Positions 2,170-44,245 of a stretch of 64,000 nucleotides of DNA are shown here, piece after piece. The DNA is from Halichondria panicea. Taxonomy: Eukaryota; Porifera; Demospongiae; Suberitida; Halichondriidae. The position numbers and the translations under genes were made by a program. Each line of letters opens with the position of its first letter. Within the stretch, counting starts at the first letter, position 1. The notes beneath the pieces were generated by a model. It made no database searches, was not told where the DNA came from, and saw only the letters and a program-made list of their open reading frames with translations. The stretch is taken from contig NC_087391.1 of assembly GCF_963675165.1 (NCBI RefSeq), positions 2,499,001 to 2,563,000 on the forward strand, read 5' to 3'.

Positions 2170-3155
2170 GCGAGCACAATGTGCTCTATTATCACTTAAA
2201 CACATTATTTTCAAATTGTTACTGTGTTTAATGTTCATTCAATTGCTAACACCTATTTTGTCAATTTGAAATCATAATTAACACTCTAATACTTTTGAGC
2301 GAGAGGCACTAAAAGAAAAGAAAATGATAAATTTGTATGATTGTTGGTCATGAAGTAAAATTATGCACTTCCGCTTATAATTCATTGAAAACAAAATCTT
2401 CTTCTTTGTTGTTTCCTAGATCCTTGAGGTCCATGGTATATAAAGTAGCCACAAAACTACCATAATTATACAATTGAACAGATGCAAGTCAGATTATTTT
2501 ATACACTTTTTCCTCTTCTATACTTCCTCTTCTTTACTTCCTCTTCTATACTATTAATCCACAAAACCCATGACTAGAACCTCTTTCATCGAACATTGAA
2601 CAACTGTAGCAGCTAGAGACAGACACACCAACTTGCTTGCACATACGGAGGCATAATTACGCTCATCCAGGTGGTTAAATTTACAAAAAGTTGTTATAAT
2701 TGGGAGTTATAGTCTGGGGAAAAAAAGTGGAGATAACCCCCCCCCCCCCCAACGCATCTTTGCGCAATCGAGTTGCACACTCTCGCGACCAAGTATGTAT
2801 GTATGTGCCTTGGCCAAAAATTCATGATGCATAAGAAGGCAGAGATGTGCCCACAGTGTCAGCGGTGCTTGGTACTAACCACCTCGTGGGCCTAGTATAC
2901 ATTACACAAAAGAGGTAAATTTCTGTGCTGAAATGAGATTGAGGGCTGAAAATAGCCACCACTTTGAAAAGTCTGTGCACATCACTAGAACGGTACGTTA
3001 CACATGTACACTACATGACTATAAATATCTCAGCAAGATGGTGGGTGGGGGGAATGGATGTACCACCCAATCATCAATGTTGGAATGTTTCACAACTGTG
3101 CACTAAATGTCATGCTACCTATAATACAGGAGGCGGCTCCAATTGCTTGGTAACT
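2170..3155. other. Non-coding AT-rich DNA
   Basis: I see no supported gene here. The stretch holds CTTCCTCTTCTATACT repeats (2511-2550), a run of ten C at 2739-2750 and GTAT repeats near 2793. Confidence 0.4.
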
Positions 3156-4622
3156 GGGCATGCTCGCTATTTATTTCCTCGTCTTTTACACTTAAGAAGG
3201 CTATAATTATAATTTACTCTTGCACACAAACTTCTTGAGCTTGTATCTCAAAGAGTACATGTATAGCTCCAAGGCTCCACTAATAATTTTTTTATTTATT
3301 GATTACACGCCTCAGTTATTAAGGGATTACATAATACTTCAAACCTTCATAATAGTGATTATGGTAGCACATTAATAGCTTGAAAGATTAGTGCCCTCCG
3401 ATTAATTCTTTTCAGGCACACAGGGAACAGATTGAGCTCAAAGATGCTGCTGTCCAGATTGACATAACATAAACTATAAACAGAAGAAAGATGCTTAGGG
3501 TTAATACGTACAGCTCAAATGTTGCATATAACCAAACAAATGTGCCATGTGTAATTCACCTGCAAAAGAATCCACTGCTGTAGGGCATGCTCGTTATTTA
3601 TTTCCTTGTCTTTTACACTTAAGAAGGCTATAATTATAATTTACTCTTGCACACAAACTTCTTGAGCTTGTAAGAGTAGTATCTCAAAGAGTACATGTAT
3701 AGCTCCAAGGCTCCACTAATCGATAGCCTCAGTTATTAAGGGATTACATAATACTTCAAACCTTCTTATGGTAGCACATTAATAGCTTGAGAGATTAGTG
3801 CCCTCCGATTAATTCTTTTGATGCACACAGGGAACAGATTAAGCTGAAAGATGCTACTGTCCAGATTGACATAACATAAACTATAAACAGAAGAAAGATG
3901 TTTAGGGTTAATACGTACAGCTAGTGCACCTAAACTGTCGCATAACCAAACAAATGTGCTATGTGTAAATTCACCTGCAAAAGAATCCACTGCTGTAGGG
4001 CATGCTCGCTATTTATTTCCTCGTCTTAAGAAAGGCTATAATTATAATTTAATCCAGCTTGCACAAAAACTTCTTGAGTTTGTAAGACTCAAAGAGTACA
4101 TGTATAGCTCCAAGGCTACTAATCGATAGCCTCAGTTATTAAGGGATTACATAATACCAAGGGCGTATAAAAGAAGAGAGGGCATGCAACTCCACTATCA
4201 GTACACGTAGCTAGCAGAATTCAAACGTGGGCAGAGGAATGTGTGCATTTGCATGAAGTGCTAAAAATAGAAGTTTCTATTTTAGCATTTCACGCACTGT
4301 CATCTGCCCACGTTTGAACTCTGCTCATATAGGAGTTGCATGCCCTCTCTTCTTTTATACGCCCTTGATAATACTTCAAACCTTCTTATGGTAGCACATT
4401 AATAGCTTGAGAGATTAGTGCCCTCCGATTAATTCCTTTGATGCAGACACACAGGAAACAGATTGAGCTCAAAGATGCTGCTGTCCAGATTGACATAACA
4501 TAAACTATAAACAGAAGAAAGATGCTTAGGGTTAATACGTACAGCTAGTGCACCTCAAATGTCGCATAACCAAACAAATGTGCTATGTACAATTCACCTG
4601 CAAAAGAATCCACTGCTGTAGG
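3156..4622. repeat. Three tandem copies of a ~0.42 kb unit
   Basis: Copies begin at 3156, 3583 and 3998 with GGGCATGCTCG(C/T)TATTT and end with CCACTGCTGTAG. The spacing is 427 and 415 bp. The third unit is 625 bp because a 210-bp palindromic element plus its 7-bp target duplication interrupts it. Units differ by small indels and substitutions, so the duplication is not recent. No coding potential is conserved among the copies. Confidence 0.85.
4158..4367. mobile_element. Palindromic foldback MITE, 7-bp target duplication
   Basis: Comparison with the uninterrupted second tandem unit defines this insertion exactly. ATAATAC at 4151-4157 is repeated at 4368-4374, and the DNA between begins CAAGGGCGTATAAAAG and ends with its reverse complement. 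The outermost 36 bp of both ends match perfectly. Homology then continues imperfectly to the centre (GAAGTTTC), so the whole 210 bp can fold as one hairpin. No gene is inside. A 7-bp duplication does not by itself fix the superfamily. Confidence 0.9.
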
Positions 4623-7560
4623 ATCACTAAAGATCTTGATTGACGTGCTGCAGTCAGCCCTGTAGGATGAGCATAATTAGTATAATTAATTATGGCTAAG
4701 AGGGGTAGCCGAGTGCTATCAGTGATTGTTATGAGTGCCTTATTGCACAAGTGGTCATACTATTGATTGTTAATCGTTTGTTTGATGCAGTTTCTAGGAC
4801 ATTTTTAGCTGCAGTTTCAGTAAAAAAAAGTAGCCGCGGGCATTATTCAAACATGCGGTCGTGAATGTAGTAATTTGGACGACGTGCAATTACTGCCTTG
4901 ATGACGTGCAATTACTGATACGCGATTAATCACTGTACGAATCACAGTGAATAATAGGACAACATGCGATTATAGATATAATTATAGTACTGTAAAATTT
5001 GCAAACATAATTATGCGAACTTGGCGAGCTAGTGTTCATCACGTTCGCAAAACCTACTTTACCTAAGTTTCACATGCAGGTACATTTATTTGCAAATTCA
5101 CATTTCGCAAGTGGTTTTATCCACTTATCTGCTGCTAGTACACATATTTTGCGATTTTACTACTGTACTAGATCTAGTATCAATTGCAGAAGTAACAGAA
5201 ATTAATATACAATTGATGTAACTATGTAATTGATGTAACCAGCATCAGCATCATTTTGTGGCCCTAAAGGAACGCCTAACGTTATAAACGTTGCTGTAAC
5301 TATTAAAACGCTTGTTAGAGATATCAAGGCAATATCAAATTATTTTACCATGCTAGCAGACAGTTTGAAATTTCCTTGACCACTCTTACATTCTCAAGAC
5401 CTTTTGAGAATGACCTTTTGCTTTAATACACAAAAGAGACCTTCAGGAAAAACAGCTAGAAGAGTTAAAGTCTTTAAACCAACTCTTTTTGACAAGAGTT
5501 GGTTTATTAAATCCAATAGACTTGAAAGCACAATTCTCACCATGAATCAAGTCATGAGATCCAATCATCCATCTTACAGCTTTAATATATACTTCATACC
5601 TTCATGACTTCTAATACACCTCATGGCATGCGGTCAATACTGCGCATGTGCGAAGATGTGCCTGAGTATGCTGGTTTCCTGGCCAAGGTCATCACTTTTA
5701 ATGATCATCTTGTCCTGGGTTCTTGACCTTTGCTTGGATTACAGCTACCGTTTCTGTTGTTCTTGACCGTTTATTTGCCTGCTTGGAAAGCTTGCTATAC
5801 CTAGTTCTATCAGTGCACAGTGCAGCAAACCAGTACATCCAAATTTATACCCTAGCTACAGAAGGCTAATTTTCCATATCTTGTGGTTTCAAAGAATGCA
5901 ATCAAAAAAGGTTGCAATTAAATCTGAGATATCTTCTCTCAAGCTTGTTCGTCTGGGGCGCGATATTTTCTGCTATGATTATGAAGCTAGTGGTGAACCG
6001 CGTGATGTTTTGATTAGTGACCTTTGGCGTACCTCCTCTGAGTTGTACATGTAAAAGTGCAAAGTAATGCACTTGTCAATACTACCATGGACCCACTTCA
6101 TGGTTTCAATAGCGAGAAGATAACAAATTATTGAAGTATATTTACTATATAAATATTGACAGCTCGTATTAACTATTTCACAAGGCCGAGATGTCACGAC
6201 ACAGATTGACAATTAACACGTGCTCTTCTCATTTACTTTGGATACGAGTTTGGGTACCAAAAGAACCGTGCACTGCGTCCCGGCAACAGCGTCTCTATTT
6301 GTAGCCCGAAGTTTTTGGGCTGAGTCCCATACACGTAGACGTAGATGTAGAATGCTACATCTACGTCACTAACTGTGTGTTAACCATTACACCTACTATC
6401 ATAAAATACGGTCTGAGAGTGACGTGATATGACATACGTGGCTTACGTGGGAGTTTCGATTCTGAGTCTGGAAGGCACTGGGAGTGCTGCAAACAGTTCG
6501 CTCATACTTTCATTGACTATTGTTCTAGTGAAATCATCATGCATAGCATGAGGCTAGCCTCTTCACGATCGTACTTCTCGTACTTAAGCCTGTGGGTTAA
6601 GCTCCCACGTTTACACAGCTCACTGACATTTTAGTGCAATTTTGGGCGGACACGTGATTCCGATGTCCGATATCGTCGGAGTGCTATGCACCGACGTTAC
6701 GGCCAGTGTTAATGTCTCAACCACGAATATTTTGCCCCCCGAAAATTACCAAACGGTTATCACCCAAAATAGACTGTTATTTTCCTCTGGATCCGCCGAG
6801 TCGGCCAGCACAAACCACAAGTTCTGAGGTGCTTACTACCCTGGATGCTGGTGCTAAACAGAAGAAGTTCGAAATTGATCTGTAAGGAAAATTTATCTTT
6901 TGTGAAAATGGCACCATTTGTGAGTACAAAAACGATCAGGCTTAGATTTTTCACCATTCAAGTTGATGTAGTACGAATGTGGTCTTCTGGTAAAGATGAT
7001 TTGTTTGAGTGCCATGTGGGCATTGCTGACAGAGTTGGCTGTGGCTACGTTCAAGAGTAGGGTGGTGTGCCATCTAGACTCTTTATTTTCATCAATTGAC
7101 GAGATGTTGCTACGTGTGAACTATCCAAAAAGTGTGACGACCCACAAGGTTGCAGCAGATCGATATAGTGCCTTCGTAGCTAATATGACGGAAGACCCAA
7201 CTGTTAAATCAGCAGACAAGCAGGACCGAGAGACGGAAGATGACTATGAAGACTCCCCACTAAAGACCGAGATAGCATGAAACCTGAACCACTACAAGTG
7301 AGAGCCACGCGAGATGGGCTGGTTGAGTATCATTCAATTGGATTGGTACAAACCCAATGTTCCATCTAATATACCAGGGCTTTCGTAGTTGTTTATTTTT
7401 CTTTGTGAACAGTCTACCTCGCTTTCAGTGTGGCAAACAAATCCTTGACTTTGGGGACTGGGTAGCGATCTAGACCGAGCCTTATGCCAGCTTTCATCCG
7501 AGCTACCAGTGGGGTGGCCCAGTGTCACTGGTTCTAGGGTTCCTGTAAGGTGTGGTAGCG
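4623..7560. other. Mostly non-coding, with weak exon-like scraps
   Basis: No complete gene is supported. Between about 6640 and 7280 there are short open stretches (for example one ending in ETEDDYEDSPLKTEIA at 7280) and a donor-like GTAAGG at 6882, but frames do not join into anything I recognise. 6340-6370 holds a small inverted repeat, ACGTAGATGTAG facing CTACATCTACGT. Confidence 0.3.
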
Positions 7561-7599
7561 AGGTGTGGCTCCAGGCTCCACTTTGATTCGTGCTTTCCT

Positions 7600-8290
7600 T
7601 CCTAACGTTCCCGAGTCACTTGAGGACTTTAGAGGGTCAGAAACAGTGAAAAAAAGTGTTCATGGCCCCCACGGTAACGTTTTTAGGAGTCATTCTTGGG
7701 TTATTACGGGAAGCTTGCCTTTACCGACTACTGCGACCCTGGAAATGGACTGCACAAGCTTTCTGCGAATCCAAGAAACTGGTGCAGGGGACACAAGAAA
7801 GAAGGGATCAAGAAGCGTCGCTCATTCGAACTCATAACCGACTCTGCCTTGAGAAGCACGATCCACCTCGTCCGCACGGTGGTCTCTCTGTTGTCATGCA
7901 AATGCCGATGCTACTCCTTCACCAGAGCAGATTCGACCCAGTGTTCTTAAAACACGGTTGGCCTACGACTATGGAGAAGAACTGCAGAAACAAGGAACTC
8001 TCTCTATACGACCTCTGGGGTGCCCGAGTGGTAGTACCGAGTACCTTACAAGAAGCTGTCATATGCAGGAATGAACGACAACATCGAGACAACCGTTCGG
8101 TCATGTGCCAAATGCCAAGCAGCACCCGCCCCTTGGGCTCGGCTACACTTAGTAAACAGACGAATGTATTTGGTGCTGATCGACACCGTACTCCCACGAG
8201 GAACTGTTTCCGGCTACCGGAGACTATTGTTACCGACAATGGGACTTGCTTCGTCCTCCGCTCACTACCACCCCGCGGCTAGCCGAACGA
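7600..8290 (+). pseudogene. Ty3-type pol relic (RNase H to integrase)
   Basis: Short plus-strand blocks appear in correct pol order although frames shift between them. They are a pre-RNase H connection (LYRLLRPWKWT, AFCESKKLVQ, about 7700-7790), a linker block (LWGARVVVP, about 8010), an integrase zinc-finger remnant (VRSCAKCQAAP, about 8095), and the second catalytic Asp block of a DDE integrase (ETIVTDNGTCF, about 8220). No LTR pair can be assigned. Several stops and frameshifts make it non-functional. Its sequence is closer to the K02A2.6-like Ty3 lineage than to elements 1 and 2 here, but that is a judgement by eye. Confidence 0.6.
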
Positions 8291-8760
8291 GCAGGTAGCC
8301 AAGTGGCACCACAGACTACCACTGGTCGGTCAAGACTAGGACGTCGAGAATCAGCAACTTCGATGCTGGTCAATGCAGAACCATCACAGTGATGCCAGTG
8401 AATCACTCCACCACCCCCCTCTGGTCGAAGGTGTAAGAACATGTGTAACCGAATGAACTATGAACTGAACTCTGAACTGAGTATTATTGATATTTATTAA
8501 GTTCTAACAGTTGCAGTTGATCAACTTGGACACGTAACTAAAATATTCATGATGGCAGCATATGTACCAGCGATTTACCAAAGCTAGATCACAGAGGAAC
8601 TAGAGTCACATATTTCGATTATATAAACATTGGAGTTCTGAACAAGTGATCAAATAGCCTTATTATTTATGATAAGCATAAAGAGCTAACTCTCCCAAGT
8701 TGATCAAAGACACAAGAAAGACGTCCTCTAATTAAGGAGCACCAGTCGAGATCGAAAACA

Positions 8761-9681
8761 ATGCCAGTCATCCAGTGCCCAATAGAGGATTGTGAGTACG
8801 AGGCACCTGATGTAGAGTCAGTGGTCGCTGCTGCACTAATAACAGCCCACGCAACAAGCACGTCGTCCGCAGGCACAACCGAGGACTGGCAATACTTAGC
8901 GGCCAGACTGAGGGGAACTGACAAAGTCATCCAATTGTTGGAAAGTTGCGATGACCAGCTCCGCAAAGATCTCACCAGGAATGCTGGAGGCACTCTCACA
9001 GGGAAAACAAAGGAGAACACGATGGTAGCCAGAGTGGCAACATGCCAATACGTGTATTTGGAGCTAGGCTAAGAGGCAGTGCACAAACTGCTAGACTACA
9101 TGCTGCGGCGACAAGAACCAGGACATGACGTTGGAGCAAGTCTTGACATCCAAGGAGGCGGGTAAGAGATCGGCCACAATCAACGGACGCGATGACCAGC
9201 AGCTCATATCGGAAGCAGAAGAAACCATCTCCCCTTGCCACACCCCCCAAGAACCAAGAAGCCTGCACATACTGTGGCACTAAGGGCCATGGAAAAAACT
9301 CGCCAACTAGAGTCAGGCGAACCCTGCCACATGCACATGCACTCACTGTGGGCACGATCAACCGACCATGAAGACAATATCTCTGACACATTATGCGGGT
9401 TGACATCAACGGGCACCACCGGAATCATCACGTTGGACCACCACATCTTCGACCCATCCACAGACAAATGGTACAGGCGGCCATCCAACGCTAGCATCGA
9501 ACGTGAAGACTATAACGATATGTGCGCCACCACAACACACCTTCATCACTGTCTAGCAGGATTGAACATTGTGAAAAAACTTGGCCTATCCACAGTGGAC
9601 CTATTACCTGTTACCCGAGTGACCGTAATATACCAATCCTGGGGGCCACGATGTCGTCAACATCACCAAGCACACCGATAA
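8761..9681 (+). pseudogene. Element 1 gag remnant
   Basis: The first frame (ATG at 8761) encodes CPIEDCEYEAPDVE, a C-x4-C N-terminal motif shared with element 2, followed by TEDWQYLAAR and DKVIQLLESCDDQLRKDL. Relative to element 2, about 100 codons in the middle and the CCHC region are eroded. THLHHCLAGLNIVKKLGLST near 9540-9600 corresponds to the protease active-site region of element 2, where the ADTGCQ motif has been lost. At least four frameshifts separate these blocks. Confidence 0.65.
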
Positions 9682-36661: not shown

Positions 36662-36800
36662 TTGCCCGTGCAAAAAAAAGTGCGACATTGCGCGGTTTTA
36701 CTGCGCTCGCGCGACATTACGCGAATATACGCGATGTGACGCAATATTACGCAATACGTGCGTTAGGCGCAAAATCGCGTAATTGCACGGTGCGCGTAAT
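36662..36800. repeat. Left subterminal CpG-rich zone
   Basis: Dense GCG/CGC words (GCGACATT, GCGCGACATTACGCGAA, ACGCGATGTGACGC, TTACGCAATACG) in an AT-rich surrounding. They may be binding sites for the element's own DNA-binding protein, as subterminal repeats are in plant CACTA elements. Confidence 0.5.
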
Positions 36801-36901
36801 CTCACAGTCAAGTTCCAGGAATCAAGTCCAAGCGATATATTCCATGAAATAATCATTTGTATACTGTTCATAAAAATCATTACTGTTAGTGGATAAAAAA
36901 A

Positions 36902-39900
36902 TTAGTCTCCAAACACAGTATTTGGGATTAAAATAATATACTTTTCAGTAGATAGGATGTCTACACACACACATTTGCATAATATGTTCAAAACAGGTAT
37001 TACTTCAACTCCAGGACCAAATGACACAGGCACGATCACTTTGTCTAAAGCTTCGATTGCACCGTTTAATTTCTCATGCATAAGAGCATTTGGAATAGCT
37101 TTTGTTACGACAGCAAGTAGGAAAGAATTGTCCAGCAAAATGAAGTAGTCAATTTGGCCCAAAGCTACGGAACCACCAGTAGAGAGAAACTTAACGGTGT
37201 AGCTGTTTCTCTTCTTTACTCTATGGTACTTTTTGCTGTAATACAGGCAATTTTGAAGAGAGAGTCGATAAAACACGTTAATGCGAGAGTTTCTTCTGAC
37301 TTCCGGACAAACTGCTTGAAGTGTTGGGGATGGCAGCATTAACGTATTACCACCAACAACTGCTGTGGGTAGCCCAGTGTAAGTGGGGTGGCAGGCTTGT
37401 CTGTGGGGATTAGTTATTATAAGCTGTGCACAGGACTTCTTATCGATAACACTTACTTTTTGCGATCAAATAAAACCTCTAGTAAGGCTTTCATTTGGGG
37501 GCATTCACTTGATATTGCTAAACTTGGCAGTGATTGCATCATCGCAAAAGAAAATATAGCCTAGCAAAAGAACATCGGTTGATTGTTGGAACAGCACATA
37601 AGTAATACACTATATACCTGCTGGGTCATGTCCCTTGTTCCATGAAAGAAGGACTTTAATTGCCCATTCATGGACTCAAAATGAAAGCATGAGTATACCC
37701 ACAATGGGCCCCAGTTCCTGACACACTCAGTGAAATGAGAAAGCATGTGAAAGTTCATAGTACACTTCTTTTTTCCTATAAAAAGGAAGAGCTAATTAAG
37801 TCTCCATCCATATAATGTTTGAGTAACTTACCATACAAGGCTGACATCTGCATGTAAAATTGAGTAAGAAAGCCTTCGGCCAGGTCAATATGTCTACTGG
37901 TTATCATCTCTGATGATAAGAAATGGGCAGCCGCAACCAAAAGGTAGAAGTGATTCATGAATGTAGCAGGTAGGACTCCACACAACACTGGTACAGCAAA
38001 GTACAAAAGCCATGCCTTCAGTTGAGAGCCTAAAGGTGGAAAGTGTTTATCAAACAATTGTGGTCAAATTAGTGGTAGGTCAAGACTGTACCTTTCCAGT
38101 GTTTGAATTCGTGCAAGGTATGAGGCACCCGGGAAATAATGTCTGGCACTTTAATGCCTAGAAGCCTCTTGTTGCAAAATTCAATCTGTGCCACGAAATT
38201 TAAAGTAAAAACTTAGGCAACGTATTAGTTGTACCTTGTCACCAATGTAGAATGGTTTCCCTTTATTTCCCTTCTCAAACCAGTACTTCAGCATGCTTAG
38301 GACAACCCCTAAATAGAGGCAGTGTAGATCATCAATGACAATGCCAGCTCCAAGGTTAAAGGGTGGGTGCCTATAAAGCGCACAATATCCTTTAACTCCT
38401 TTTTCCTGTTGAAAAAGAAAGTACCTACATAGCATGTGTGAGTGGTACGTGTGCACTTATGGCACTCTTCGTTTGGACAGCCTCTTCTGCGTTGGAGAGT
38501 AAAGACTCGTGTGTTCGTTTGGTAACAGATGCTTCATAGGGCCAAAAACGATGCATGGGATTGGATGGCTCAGTTTCACCTTTTTGCTCACAATAGCAGC
38601 AACCATGTGCACCATTGAATTGCTTCATTTGCAGCACACAAGCCCTTGCAGGCAAGTCCACAGAACACTGTAAGATAATTCCTCTGGCAAGTTTGACCCC
38701 ATCAGGTGTCGATACATGTACGCCTACAAAGGGACATGCAATGGCTATAAAGTGTACACACCAGCATTCACATTTGCAATGGACTTATGGCCACACTTTA
38801 TAAGGTCAGGACAAGACATTACAGAAGGGTGAACACCAACCTTGAAGGCACAGTTGATTGACATCATTAACAAGAGGCTTGAGTAGGGTGGTCATGGTGG
38901 GATTCTCGGCAGAATACCAAATAGAGTGCAGAATCATATTTCTCTTACTGTATCTGCATAAATTAATGAATAGGTAAACAACACTGCAACACTACAAATT
39001 ATTTCTAACCTTAGGTTCTTGGGAAGTTCATTGATAACCAACCACACAGGCCATATAGAGACGTTACTGGACTTGTAGAGGCTTACTCCATCAGTGTTTA
39101 ATACAAATGAAATGTGATTAGGCTCCGATAAAAATTTGGAATGCCTTTTGTACTCGTGGCCATCATGTACGTCACGGATCTTATCGCTACTTGTGTGTTC
39201 AAGTAGTGTTTTCTGCTCCTTAAGAGCGCTCCACAAAATAGGATCTGTAATTAAGATCAATTAATTTTAAAGCATATATATAATTATGTACTTACCTTCC
39301 ATTACTTTTCGCACTTGTGAAGCTAGGGGTATGCTCACAAACTCTTTAATACAACTGCCTGCTGTAATACACCGGTCATGCTCGCATGGCTCAGATCCAT
39401 TCTCCAAAAAATCCAGGCACACGCTACAGTAATAGTTGGACGTTGCTTTAACACTGGAAAAATGTTCAGCAAAGCACTTCTTCAGCCGGTACACAGACAA
39501 ACTGAGTCTGTTTTTTTCCGGTAAGTGTGCTGCAAAAAGCAGTAAGAGTTCATTGAATGCCTTTCCTGAGAGTCCATGACGTATAGCATATTGAAACAAT
39601 GCGAGATTGCTTTCCATGGTAGTTATTGTAGCTCCTTCATAGAGAGGTTCCTTGCTAGTACTTAGAGCTTGTCCACCTCCAGTAGTACCAGGTATATCAT
39701 AACCAACATCGACAAGCGTACTAGAATCAAAGCTATCTTGGTAACTGGTGGTCAAAAATGATTCTCTTAATTCTGACACTTCAGGTGCAGTAGAAGAGTC
39801 ACTCTCGGTCTCGTTATCCTCGTTGAAAGTGGTGTTACCCTCAGACTCTAAGTCAGTGTCGTCCGTGCTGAAAAAATCTAGATCCAGGCTAACAGTTGGA

Positions 39901-40007
39901 GATGTACTTGATTCTACGATACCATACTCCATGGCATGAGTACTTTCAATGCTGCTGAGCTCAACAGAGTCAAAAAGAGGGGAGCTGCACTCAAACGCCA
40001 TATACAT
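36902..40007 (-). CDS. CACTA/EnSpm-like (Transposase_21) protein, 852 aa, 10 exons
   Basis: Exons on the minus strand: 40007-39296, 39244-39010, 38953-38841, 38723-38449, 38405-38235, 38185-38092, 38029-37832, 37775-37618, 37560-37457, 37400-36902. All nine introns are GT-AG, 43-117 bp, mostly 49-62. Exon lengths sum to 2,559 nt, exactly 853 codons with stop, and no junction makes a stop. Visible motifs: acidic Ser/Thr-rich N-terminus; CSVCLDF...CEHDRC zinc-like motif (about 194-213); NTDGVSLYKSSNVSIWPVW (about 286-304); CCYCEQKGE; VIDDLHCLYLGVV (about 470); NFHMLSHF; FESMNGQLKSFFHGTRD (about 632). The DGVSLYKSS, DxLHxxxLG and MNGxL..HGTR blocks are those of animal Transposase_21 proteins. 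It would bind element ends and catalyse transposition in the nucleus. The 43-bp intron after exon 4 (GTACCA donor) is the least certain junction. Catalytic acids are not assigned. Confidence 0.8.
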
Positions 40008-40168
40008 AGCTAGCTAAAACTTCTTTGCATGTACTTCCCGTCCCGGCCACACCCAAGTAGGCCTAAATTCAAGTCACGTGGCACAACACGTGGCATGGCA
40101 CTTTGCATCTAACTAGCTAGCTAGCTACACATACACAGCTCTGATCTGTTGTCATTTAAAGTCTAGCT
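40008..40168. promoter_or_regulatory. Shared divergent promoter with two CACGTG boxes
   Basis: Only 161 bp separate the two start codons. It contains CACGTG at 40075-40080 and again at 40087-40092, centres 12 bp apart (about one helical turn), within a GTGGCA-containing repeat. Further in are CTAGCTAGCTAGCTA and no obvious TATA box. CACGTG is the core site of bHLH-zip factors of the Myc/Max/USF/MITF type. Confidence 0.55.
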
Positions 40169-42965
40169 ATGTCTGTCCGTGACCTGTGCAGAAAAACTGG
40201 TAAGCAAACAAATATATGCTGTACATGGCTTGCTTCGTAGCTAGAATTACTGACCTATGTCGGTCGTATGAAATTCTTGTGTTATCACAATAATATTTTA
40301 ATAATTATTGTAGAAGCATTTTTCCTTGTTGACTGGGTGGGCGAAGACACTCACAGTGTTGTACCATCCAAAGACATCGATGAATGTGCTGATGTTGGTG
40401 AACAAGTGAAGGTCAGGGTGGGACCAAAGCACTATGATGCCATTGTACTTGGAAGAGGTAACTTGAGTACCAGCCCCTTTCAAGAGGAAGATGTCTATTA
40501 TATTGACCATAATTATATGTAGGTACGAAAGTGGAGATGGAGCAGCTAATGGAGGAGAGGGAGATTACATCTGAAGTTGAGGACGGTGATGTTGACCTAC
40601 CTGACTTGCCTGACCTACCTGACCTACCTGACCGCAGTGACTCACCACAGTCACTGACCATGCCTAGCCCCAAGAAAAAGCAAAAAAAGCTCCTAAAGCA
40701 CCCAAAACAAGTACTCCTAGACGTAAGAAGCCCCAGAAAATAAAAAAGAAAACTCCAATGGAGGACTGGAAGGTGGGACTAATTGCTTTACTGTGTAGGT
40801 AATTAACTTTGTATTATCTGATTCAACAGGTAGCAAAGACTGTTGCTTCAAAGGCCAAGAGTGCACAGAAATCAGCAAGGGAAGAGGTGCAACTGAGTCC
40901 TACAGTTTCTGATGAGGCTACAGCTCTCAAGGTACAGTATTTTTGATCTGTACAGGGTGTTCCCCTTCCAAGCAAACAGGGTGCTGTAGTCTTCCAATAG
41001 TAACCTCATCAAAGGGAATTAACTTGTCCAAAAGGGCGCCAGCATCCTATTTCTTACATAATAATCTTTGTCTATATTTATTCAGGATATTTTTATTTCA
41101 GTTTTAAGGGAAATTTTAGATAATTTTGTGCATGCGCGAGGCCTGTGTAGGAGGCTAATGGGCAACATGATAGTCCAATTTTTGGTGCATTTGACACCCC
41201 ATGCACCCTAATTATTGTGTTCTTATAGAGTCAATTCGAGAAAGAAGGATTGATTGTGCTACCTGCAACACCCACACAAACTATCACATCCACCCAACCA
41301 GTCGCTACTCAGATCCAGCCATCAACCACTACTCCCTTCCAGCCATCAACCACTACTCCCTTCCAGCCATCAACCGCTACTCCATTCCAGCCATCAACAC
41401 TTGCTCAGTTCCAGCCATCAGCACTTGCTCAGTTCCAGTCATCACCTGTATTTAACACTCCACCTGGGCACATTCCAATTGGCGCAGTCTACGGGAATTA
41501 CAATTCTCCTAACCACCCTTCCTCGGAAGTAAGTTGCATTTTGTCTTCTCCTCTGTGTGTGCGTGCGTGTGTGTGTGTGCGTGTGCGTGTGTGTGTGTGT
41601 GTGTGAGGCATGCTCAAACCGCAGACCACTAATTAAGTTATCCTACATTGCAGACATCCTGGAGTGGTGGGATGAATTTGTACAGACATTCCTCTTTTAC
41701 TGGTGAAGATGCTATGGAATTGGGGAGGAGTTCAACACCTAGTTCCTCTTCAGGAGATTATCAGGTAGAAGATAGGCCCTGGCAAATTATGCTATTTTTG
41801 CCCCTATTACAAATTCAGCCTTGTTGAAACAACCCATTATGCCCCACATTGAAGAATCTTTTTTCAACAATATTAGTATTATACAAAAAATTGTATAGTA
41901 ACATAACTGAAGATTCAACGTAATCTTCTAGTGATGCTTGTTGTTGAGATGTAAAGGAGGCACTTAAAAGAGAAAAAACACGTTCAGTAGCGGCAGAGGA
42001 GGGTTTTATATATGTACCCTATTATGCCAGCTTATTGACCTAACCTACGAATGTGTTTTTGTGTTTTTGATTGCAGAATCTTTGGGGTGAGATACGTAAA
42101 CTAAGAAATCAGATGGACCAAGTGAGATCAGTGCTAAAGCTAAAGAAGAAGTTGAAGGTACCATACTGCATTCAAGCGTTACTGAACCCATTCTGTGTGC
42201 TATGACTACCAGAAAAACAGTGTGTACAGCTCCTTGTTGAAGCAAAACTAGAGTCTAAGTAACATGTCTTAGCACTTATATCAAGACAGTGCGTCTTAAT
42301 TATTGTCCAGTGTTTTCCCCAAATAAGTGTGAAAGCTAGGGTAAGGGGTGAGTGTGGTTTTATGGCTACTTATAAATAGAGTTTGGGGTCCATATACTGA
42401 AAGGACCTTATATGTATGCAGGCTAAAACATCCAGTGAGTCTGCTTGTTATCCTCCTACTCCCACAGACTCACCCCTAGAGATGGACACAAGTGGCACTA
42501 AAGGTAAAAGTTTCTAATGTCAGGTTTGCAATATTAATTGTTTTACTATTTTCGTAGCAGGATGTTGGCTCGGTGAGAGAGGCACTGGCCAGAGCACATT
42601 CATAGAGAGCCTTTACCAGGAGGATATAGCTAGAGCAGAAAACGATGGAACCACCCCAGCTAAACTAGCAGTAAACCTCCTCTGTGCTCTGTTTAGCCAG
42701 GAGGACATCTCTACTGGTAATTGTACCCAGCCTCGCAAACCTGGTATTATGCTGCTTGATCAAAAGAAAATGTGTGGAATAAGATGTGAGTTCAATGTGA
42801 TGATAATAATAATGTTATTGCTCTTACTGTAAACTTATACTTTCAGATCATGTGAACTACCGATTTCCATGCGCAAAGCAGGACGAACCAAGGAGATGGA
42901 ATAATTTGCTTACCAAGAATTTAAATGCAAAATGTCGATCCAAAAGACTTCCCCAGGACTCTTGA
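40169..42965 (+). CDS. BEN-domain protein, ~481 aa, 10 exons, one A-run frameshift
   Basis: Exons: 40169-40199, 40314-40457, 40523-40772, 40830-40931, 41229-41528, 41654-41764, 42077-42157, 42422-42503, 42561-42785, 42847-42965; all introns GT-AG. The protein opens MSVRDLCRKT, EAFFLVDWVGEDTHSVVPSK and a small domain ending AIVLGRG (BRCT- or tudor-like position, function unknown). Then an LPDLPDLPD acidic repeat, a Lys-rich NLS-like stretch (TPRRKKPQKIKKK), a repeated TPFQPST/AQFQPSA Gln-Pro region, a short coiled coil (WGEIRKLRNQMDQVRSVLKL) and a C-terminal BEN domain (TPAKLAVNLLCALFSQEDI, GIMLLDQKKMCGI, WNNLLTKNLNAKCRSKR). BEN domains bind DNA. Total exon length is 1 nt short of a full frame; the break is in an A7 run near 40680. 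Confidence 0.7.
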
Positions 42966-43059
42966 AGCATTGACATGATCACTTTTGTGCATGCTCATTG
43001 TTGTGTAATGCATTCTCATTGTTGTGTAATGCATGCATGGGTATAGGCGGTACCATACA

Positions 43060-43206
43060 TATGTGCTTGCCGCTTTTGTGAGTATGCGCATGCGCGATGC
43101 AGCGCGCTATTGTTCGTATACGTACGCGCTATGCAGCGGGACGATAACGTGTGCTTGCGGTAGCGCGCGCAATCTTAAGAGCGAGATGGTGCGCATATAC
43201 GGGCAA
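43060..43206. repeat. Right subterminal CpG-rich zone
   Basis: GCGCATGCGCGATGCAGCGC, TACGTACGCGCTATGCAGCG, GCGGTAGCGCGCGCAATC and GGTGCGCATATACGGGCAA. GCGC(.)ATGCAGCG is repeated twice. Like the left zone it ends in ...ACGGGCAA reading outward. Confidence 0.5.
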
Positions 43207-44245
43207 TAACGAGAGAAAGGGCATTCCTTTTCGCACGGGTGGAGATGAAACCAAGAAAGGTTTGTGTTCACCCTATATGCCTTTTGCAAGGACATATTCT
43301 AGTACGAATCGTAAAAATGTGATAAGATTTCTACTCTGTGTAGTGTGTACGATACTGGCAGACACTTATCTCTGTAGTTATAGGAGGATGTGCCAAACAA
43401 GAGAATTTATGAAAGCTGGTGTGAAGAATGAAAGCTGGTGTGAAGGCTGAGCAAGTCAGGGCCACCGAAAGACAATCCAAACAAGAAGTAACTAAGCTCT
43501 TCAATAATGCCACTCCTGCAAAGCACAAGATGAAAATAAAGGCTTCCACTGAGTGGAAACATAAATTCTCTTGTTTGGCCTATCGCGGGCAGATACATAT
43601 TCCTACTACAGATGTGGAAAAAGATGATCTTTTGCAAGCAGGGCTAGGTGAAAAAGAGATTTCTTTCCATGACATGAATGCCAGTGCCGAGGAATTTCGA
43701 GATATTATCTGTGGAGAGTTCCCTCAATTGAAGAAAGCGGGAGGTTTTCAACGATGTAAATGCAGGTGGAAATACTGTCTATTTTTGCTCACGGTGCCCT
43801 GGAAACTTGAAACAGAGAGTAGGCAATGCGAAGACTTACATTCGTCCCCTTCAGAAAGATATGGACCTTAGTGTCGGGTATGCTTATCTGTTTTTTTGTC
43901 GATAAAAGCTGTTTCCCACAATGTAACGTATGCCGGACTAATTGTTTAGTCAACCTAATCACCCTTGTTAAATCATTTGTATTGTGCTGACCGTGTGCTA
44001 TTTCGTAATTGATAGCCTGAGGAGGAGTGTCTCACTTGTGGTACGTATTTGCCACTCATGGAGCTAGAAAATCAGTGTGAAAAAGCTTAGAGTGATTCCA
44101 AGAAGTTTTTGTTATGGTATATACGTATAAATATTATATATAAAGCAGCCCAAGAATGAGGACAAGGCAAAATGGTGTGTATGTGCATGTATTTGCTTGT
44201 TCGTTGTCTAACAAGCTGTATCTATAATTATGTACAACAAATCAT

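Follow-up and report, generated by a model that had tools for sequence, protein, structure and literature searches.

A CACTA-superfamily transposon of the sponge Halichondria panicea in which the transposase gene is paired head to head with a BEN-domain gene

Introduction

A 64-kb stretch of the Halichondria panicea genome (C15:2499001-2563000 in a genome of 131 Mb; hereafter the window) contains a gene for a Transposase_21-like enzyme and a gene for a BEN-domain protein that diverge from one short intergenic region, and the locus raises the question of whether the two genes travel together as one transposon and, if they do, what the BEN protein does for it. The original prediction, made from the letters of the window, saw here a two-gene animal CACTA-type transposon whose BEN protein recognises CpG-rich ends. 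We found that window 36665-43239 belongs to the CACTA/EnSpm superfamily as a cut-and-paste DNA transposon of the animal TRC type, and that a second family of elements likewise pairs its transposase with a BEN gene; the CpG-rich ends did not hold up as a general target. We regard it as probable that the transposase (the TNPD analogue) is joined in this element by a BEN protein (the TNPA analogue) that would act on the subterminal DNA, on a shared promoter, or on both. Animal TRC elements are already known to have CCC at the ends of their inverted repeats, to be flanked by 2-bp direct repeats and to encode a second protein, and the 2006 report that describes them asked, in its excerpts, that animal TRC proteins be tested for DNA binding of the TNPA kind (PMC1636069). 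The BEN partner is what appears to be new: among the papers listed and excerpted none describes a BEN gene in a CACTA/EnSpm or Transposase_21 element, and Repbase reports may hold such a description.

Results

The window element moved as a unit

The window copy has a relative on C1, L026, and we refer to the two as family 1. L026 matched the window from 36665 to 43239 with the alignment ending there on both sides, was 96% alike over the main block and had different flanks; TG borders the window copy at either end, and AA borders L026. When the window flanks were joined with a single TG, the joined sequence matched two places on C1 (75% over positions 42-294 of the 300 in the query), and at both of these paralogous places the DNA continued unbroken across the junction, making them empty sites with one TG. 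The bounded insertion that had been predicted at 36662..43206 is therefore real, with its coordinates corrected to 36665-43239 and a TG on either side (Table 1). A search for further copies with both genes and the same ends had also been proposed, and L026 is such a copy, carrying the family 1 ends and both genes in different surroundings; genome searches with the left and right terminal 240 bp returned no family 1 copies beyond these two. The insertion site itself is part of a multi-copy sequence (L074, C1:17202501-17202900; L075, C1:9080641-9081040), and several short stretches common to both C1 empty-site copies are missing from the window flanks.

The empty sites rule out a host-gene origin of the insertion, and the BEN gene lies between the transposon ends and is not a host gene held in synteny, which had been named in advance as a refuting observation. 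It is true that RefSeq has an ordinary gene entry, LOC135348995, for the BEN part, as would suit two host genes that became neighbours by chance with no transposon unit at all. The precise empty sites already refute that explanation, which the target duplication and the second copies with other flanks also contradict, and we give it practically no weight.

Two copies of a second family, L051 on C1 and L052 on C11, are 5588 bp long, have the ends CCCTATTA and are 99.91% alike in different flanks, and this near-identity points to very recent movement. Joining the L052 flanks with one TT gave a 193-amino-acid frame with NHL repeats (Pfam 1.5e-26), and the junction, at residue 100, falls within the best of these repeats (residues 81-107); with two TT the reading leaves the NHL frame, yet stays open for 174 amino acids. 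This copy thus interrupts an NHL-repeat coding stretch. L051 is inserted into a long TG-rich simple repeat array (L051:2300-2870 and 8455-9600). Across three families, a 2-bp duplication was found in all six insertions with two readable ends.

Table 1. Positions of the features described, in window coordinates unless a locus is named
Feature	Position	Strand	Size or content	Basis or remark
Target duplication, left copy	36663..36664		TG, 2 bp
Whole DNA transposon, family 1 window copy	36665..43239		6575 bp	alignment edge with copy L026 and two empty sites
Left terminal inverted repeat	36665..36676	+	CCCGTGCAAAAA	11/12 match to opposite end
CpG-rich subterminal zone	36665..36824		22 CpG and 7 CGCG in 160 bp
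Transposase gene	36902..40007	-	10 exons, 852 aa	splice model with GT-AG junctions, one open frame
Transposase exons	40007-39296, 39244-39010, 38953-38841, 38723-38449, 38405-38235, 38185-38092, 38029-37832, 37775-37618, 37560-37457, 37400-36902	-
Divergent intergenic region	40008..40168		161 bp	putative shared promoter
BEN-protein gene	40169..42965	+	10 exons	splice model
BEN gene exons	40169-40199, 40314-40457, 40523-40772, 40830-40931, 41229-41528, 41654-41764, 42077-42157, 42422-42503, 42561-42785, 42847-42965	+
BEN-protein N-terminal module	40169..40560	+	FFLVDWVGEDTHSVVPS...VKVRVGPKHYDAIVLGRG	common to family 3 partner
A-run	40682..40688	+	7 A (8 A in L026)	BEN frame break
BEN domain, exons 9 and 10	42561..42965	+		PF10523 1.5e-6
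CpG-rich subterminal zone	43080..43239		22 CpG and 5 CGCG in 160 bp
Right terminal inverted repeat	43228..43239	-	CCCGTGCGAAAA (as minus strand)
Target duplication, right copy	43240..43241		TG, 2 bp
Family 2 copies	L051:2869-8455; L052:2683-8265
2-bp duplications by insertion			window TG; L026 AA; L051 TG; L052 TT; L053 GT; L056 TC	L051 in TG-rich tract

The transposase belongs to the CACTA superfamily

The minus-strand gene encodes, as predicted, a Transposase_21-like enzyme, with Pfam matches to Transposase_21 (9.9e-12, above the cut-off) and DUF1258 (5.9e-13) and a D-D-C2C-H3H-E signature. The catalytic residues, placed from an alignment of 37 transposases (32 similarity-search matches and 5 from the sponge genome), are D289, D376, C395/C398 (C2C), H609/H613 (H3H) and E633. 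Both D residues and C2C were present in 37/37 aligned transposases, and H3H with E in all 34 rows that reach that region. Exon 1 of the L026 transposase has a 13-base gap and a 2-base gain, a net change that is not in whole codons. No relatives of the transposase were found in the viral and prokaryote contigs in which they were sought.

We compared the element with known systems as described in excerpts of three reports. The CMCT clade is marked by the order D, D, C(2)C, H(3-4)H, E and by 2-5 bp target duplications (PMC12730594), and the window element shares its motif order, short inverted repeats (11/12 bp) and a duplication within that range (TG), but lacks the CA..TG termini of most members. 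Plant-type CACTA elements sensu stricto have CACTA termini and a 3-bp duplication (PMC4158355), whereas the window element has CCCGTGC termini and a 2-bp duplication and so falls outside that group. The animal TRC element SmTRC1, in which 7 of 14 copies have 2-bp direct repeats (PMC1636069), has in common with the sponge elements Transposase_21, the CCC termini and 2-bp repeat (seen here in three families and six insertions) and a further non-transposase protein. The further proteins of SmTRC1 come from alternative splicing and have no detectable relatives (PMC1636069); the sponge element instead has a separate head-to-head BEN gene, and BEN is not named for SmTRC1 in the excerpts of that report. 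The PIF/Harbinger type with a Myb/SANT partner (Nuwa) likewise combines a transposase with a separate DNA-binding partner gene (PMC12730594), but its transposase, partner domain and duplication are different and the sponge element is no member of it.

The partner gene encodes a BEN-domain protein

The plus-strand gene carries the BEN domain that had been predicted for it, scoring 28.7 bits against PF10523 in family 1 and 27.7 bits in family 2 where the curated cut-off is 23.2. The layout of two divergent 10-exon genes, with their exon counts and 161-bp spacing, was likewise borne out, except that the plus-strand gene of the window is not open: exon 3 is out of frame with the remaining gene by one base at a run of 7 A, whereas L026 has 8 A and an open frame of 500 codons. 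The break lies in reading phase at A_AAA_AAG, a motif of programmed -1 frameshifting; we considered such a frameshift and set it aside, because with 8 A and an open frame in L026 a one-base loss or a homopolymer assembly slip is the simpler account. RefSeq LOC135348995 isoform X2 (P0033), annotated as an ordinary gene, is the window BEN gene from the end of exon 3 onward. BEN exon 5 (window 41229-41528) holds a 24-bp tandem repeat, read by eye as FQPSTTTP units, at which the family 1 copies differ by 48 bp.

A three-row BEN profile searched against the sequences of the Protein Data Bank (PDB) found BANP as the nearest solved structure (2.8e-4) and, weakly, BEND3 (0.077). BEN factors are chromatin and transcription factors, and BANP and BEND3 bind CpG-containing sites; these two share the BEN domain with the sponge partner but are host proteins, not transposon genes. 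Searched against the protein collection, the BEN protein matched only itself among 7992 candidates scored, and the three-row alignment found four fragments there that are 55-100% like the family 3 partner.

The pairing recurs in diverged families

In the clade of this transposase, five loci that bear the catalytic core were read (window, L026, L051, L052 and L053), and 5/5 have a divergent partner, with a Pfam BEN match in the partner of 4/5. The family 2 transposase is 32% identical to that of the window and stands head to head with a 5-exon BEN gene (Pfam BEN 3.1e-6). Family 3 (L053) is 5761 bp long with a 12/12-bp inverted repeat, CCCTTACAGAAA, and the duplication GT; its transposase is a single 864-codon frame, 29% like that of the window, head to head with a 3-exon partner. 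The N-terminal modules of the family 3 and window partners are 30% alike over 76 residues (blastp E 8e-5, in a comparison among four sequences). When profiles were compared, the family 3 partner did not match the BEN alignment.

Two core-deleted loci also have a head-to-head partner. L070, a second family 3 copy, has lost transposase residues 275-658 and keeps the partner exons, with internal stops; inside one end, family 3 holds tandem units of about 82 bp (L053 element about 135-630; L070:6039-6220) whose number differs between copies. The other locus, on C13 (L048 with L073), has transposase exons without the catalytic core and a partner whose N-terminus resembles the N-terminal module by eye. 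Compared with the family 2 BEN sequence, the C13 C-terminus scored 6.3 standard deviations above shuffles, and the family 3 and C13 C-termini scored 3.8 against each other, with 3 of 500 shuffles as high; no BEN chain matched the C13 C-terminus in the PDB sequence search. A divergent BEN type is already known, since DUF4806 is a BEN subtype according to the excerpted text of PMC11075544, citing Pan 2023. Copies of the transposase without the BEN neighbour and with other ends had been named in advance as the observation that would count against the pairing; in this clade all five core-bearing and both core-deleted loci are partnered.

L056 is a 2.9-kb derivative of family 2 that has both ends, the duplication TC and the BEN exons and is without the transposase. 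Its BEN exon 5 (90 codons) differs from family 2 with a synonymous divergence (dS) of 1.25 and a nonsynonymous divergence (dN) of 0.077, a ratio of 0.06.

These results bear on a further explanation, that the BEN gene was captured from the host or rides along as a passenger and plays no part in the element. BEN domains are common among animal nuclear proteins, and the BEN reading is broken both in the window copy and in exon 2 of L056, all of which would suit a passenger. We nevertheless consider this very unlikely, as head-to-head partners occur in families whose transposases are only 29-32% alike, dN/dS is low in the family 2 BEN exon, and partner sequence was kept even where the transposase core was deleted.

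In the genome as a whole, 13 of the 26 Transposase_21 places of the family search were read, so that the number of family members given is a minimum; the place list is without intron-rich copies, the window's own among them. A set of 24 loci that were assigned to clades represents 17 places, of which 3 belong to this clade, 12 to another clade (the DWFQPF motif was seen in 7 of these), 1 is unclear (C13) and 1 had no match. A whole-genome BEN family search gave six matches: the two family 2 copies, L056, and three elsewhere (C3:5165510, C14:2910290 and C16:4013419), one of the three just over the cut-off and two under it. The window BEN was missed in this search because an intron splits the domain.

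No recognisable BEN neighbour was found for three other-clade transposases, L054, L055 and L057: beside L054 no partner was seen, and the two open reading frames (ORFs) upstream of L055 and the two upstream of L057 gave no Pfam BEN match. The divergent upstream ORFs of L055 (transposase 3636-6014 minus, ORFs 6625-8054 plus) and L057 (transposase 4063-5181 plus, ORFs 2282-3564 minus), which belong to second-clade transposases with the NVDWFQPF motif, are possibly another partner type. When a hand-joined piece of L055 was run by tblastn against 15 loci, the result did not support grouping these ORFs as one family.

The subterminal DNA differs between families

Plant En/Spm carries subterminal repeats. 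In the window family the predicted CpG-rich ends are real: the outermost 160 bp at either end have 13.8 CpG per 100 bp, vs 1.6 inside. When 160-bp windows were taken in steps of 20 over the 64 kb (3192 in all), 16 or more CpG occurred in 12, every one at these two ends. CGCG was counted 12 times in the terminal 320 bp vs once in the 6255 bp between, and the excess at the ends of this family is CpG itself. The ends of families 2 and 3 are CpG-poor, and their terminal 150-250 bp hold repeated short motifs of the AAGAATCA and CACACGTG types. Of 200 first-order Markov controls, 0 to 13 attained the top k-mer count of these two families (k 6 to 8, both lengths), and for the top 8-mer of 250 bp it was 1/200 in each. 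CpG-rich ends are thereby ruled out as a general recognition target, and with families 2 and 3 CpG-poor and bearing other motifs, recognition would have to co-evolve family by family.

The ends and the intergenic region also leave room for a different role, in which the BEN protein is an element-encoded regulator acting on the shared promoter or against host silencing rather than an end binder, and the transposase needs no helper. Both genes start on the 161-bp divergent region, the CpG-dense family 1 ends are a likely target of DNA methylation, and maize Spm TNPA itself regulates the promoter according to the excerpts of PMC1636069. Such regulation is compatible with end binding, and the family-specific subterminal repeats suggest that some protein binds them; we hold regulation alone to be rather unlikely.

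Partner-bearing transposases are scattered in the tree

A tree was built of 36 rows, with P0032 left out; it includes several long rows and branches and some uncertain joins, and its outside rows come from one similarity search. The window transposase adjoins P0001 (100/99), near the lancelet protein P0002 (89/95), and the family 3 transposase falls in a 20-member group (93/94) that includes proteins named from Mercenaria, Pecten, Saccostrea and Pinctada; that of family 2 is unplaced. The three partner-bearing transposases do not form one group and are scattered among sequences of other animals, leaving a single sponge lineage of BEN-bearing transposases unsupported by the tree. This scatter leaves two histories, an ancient partner in animal TRC elements or repeated acquisition of it.

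Repeated uptake, with different animal TRC lineages acquiring the partner several times and not once at the base, is a question separate from what the protein does. The ungrouped transposases and the BEN or BEN-like domains, which are very unlike one another, speak for it. The orientation is the same in all, however, and by eye so is the order of modules (N-terminal module, basic linker, coiled-coil-like stretch and BEN or BEN-like C-terminus), which favours one origin, and we judge several acquisitions to be unlikely, if by no great measure.

Discussion

The element described here moved as a unit, encodes a transposase with the catalytic signature of its superfamily and pairs it with a divergent BEN gene. 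In the probable arrangement of transposase and BEN protein set out at the start, both proteins would be made from one regulatory region. The transposase would cut and join the CCC termini, and the BEN protein would use its C-terminal BEN domain to bind the repeats in the subterminal DNA. It may multimerise through the coiled-coil-like stretch seen by eye, and might bring the two ends together, control the shared divergent promoter, or do both. The maize counterpart of such a factor, binding subterminal DNA, the promoter or both, is TNPA (excerpts of PMC1636069). Plant En/Spm has a Transposase_21 transposase and a second element protein in common with the sponge element (excerpts of PMC1636069); in the sponge element the second gene differs, pointing away from the transposase gene, having exons of its own and encoding a BEN domain.

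Several results weigh against this arrangement. Neither family 1 copy, as assembled, is open in both genes, and the dN/dS ratios between the two copies (0.31 from 19 changes in the transposase and 0.35 from 11 changes in the BEN part) come from too few changes to judge selection. When the exon model of family 2 is applied to L056, its exon 2 falls out of frame, and the ratio over the broken reading is 0.42. A single family 2 BEN sequence matched no BEN chain among the PDB sequences. The family 3 and C13 partners gave no Pfam BEN match at E up to 1 and are classed as BEN-like only; the family 3 C-terminus, BEN-like by eye only, exceeded shuffles for none of four BEN sequences, and that of C13 did so for 1/4 only, with 0.4 to 2.4 against the other three. 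At the window ends, 57 to 124 of 200 first-order Markov controls attained the top 6- to 8-mer counts, the CGCG count was reached by 483/1000 controls and a weak excess of TACGC by 29/1000.

A BEN-domain, probably DNA-binding protein thus becomes a candidate for the missing helper protein of animal CACTA-type transposons, with a separate gene of a recognisable DNA-binding domain type occupying the place of the second protein in the same orientation in diverged families. The 99.91% identity of the family 2 pair suggests that these elements moved recently, which would justify attempting a transposition assay. Such elements are also a source for animal BEN genes that annotation pipelines list as host genes, as happened to the window copy (RefSeq LOC135348995). 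More tentatively, a BEN-type protein with a conserved N-terminal module could be the ancestral second gene, the TNPA counterpart, of animal TRC (CACTA) transposons, and part of the animal BEN repertoire, including divergent types missed by sequence models, may descend from or have been spread by such elements; we offer this as a possibility clearly short of an even chance.

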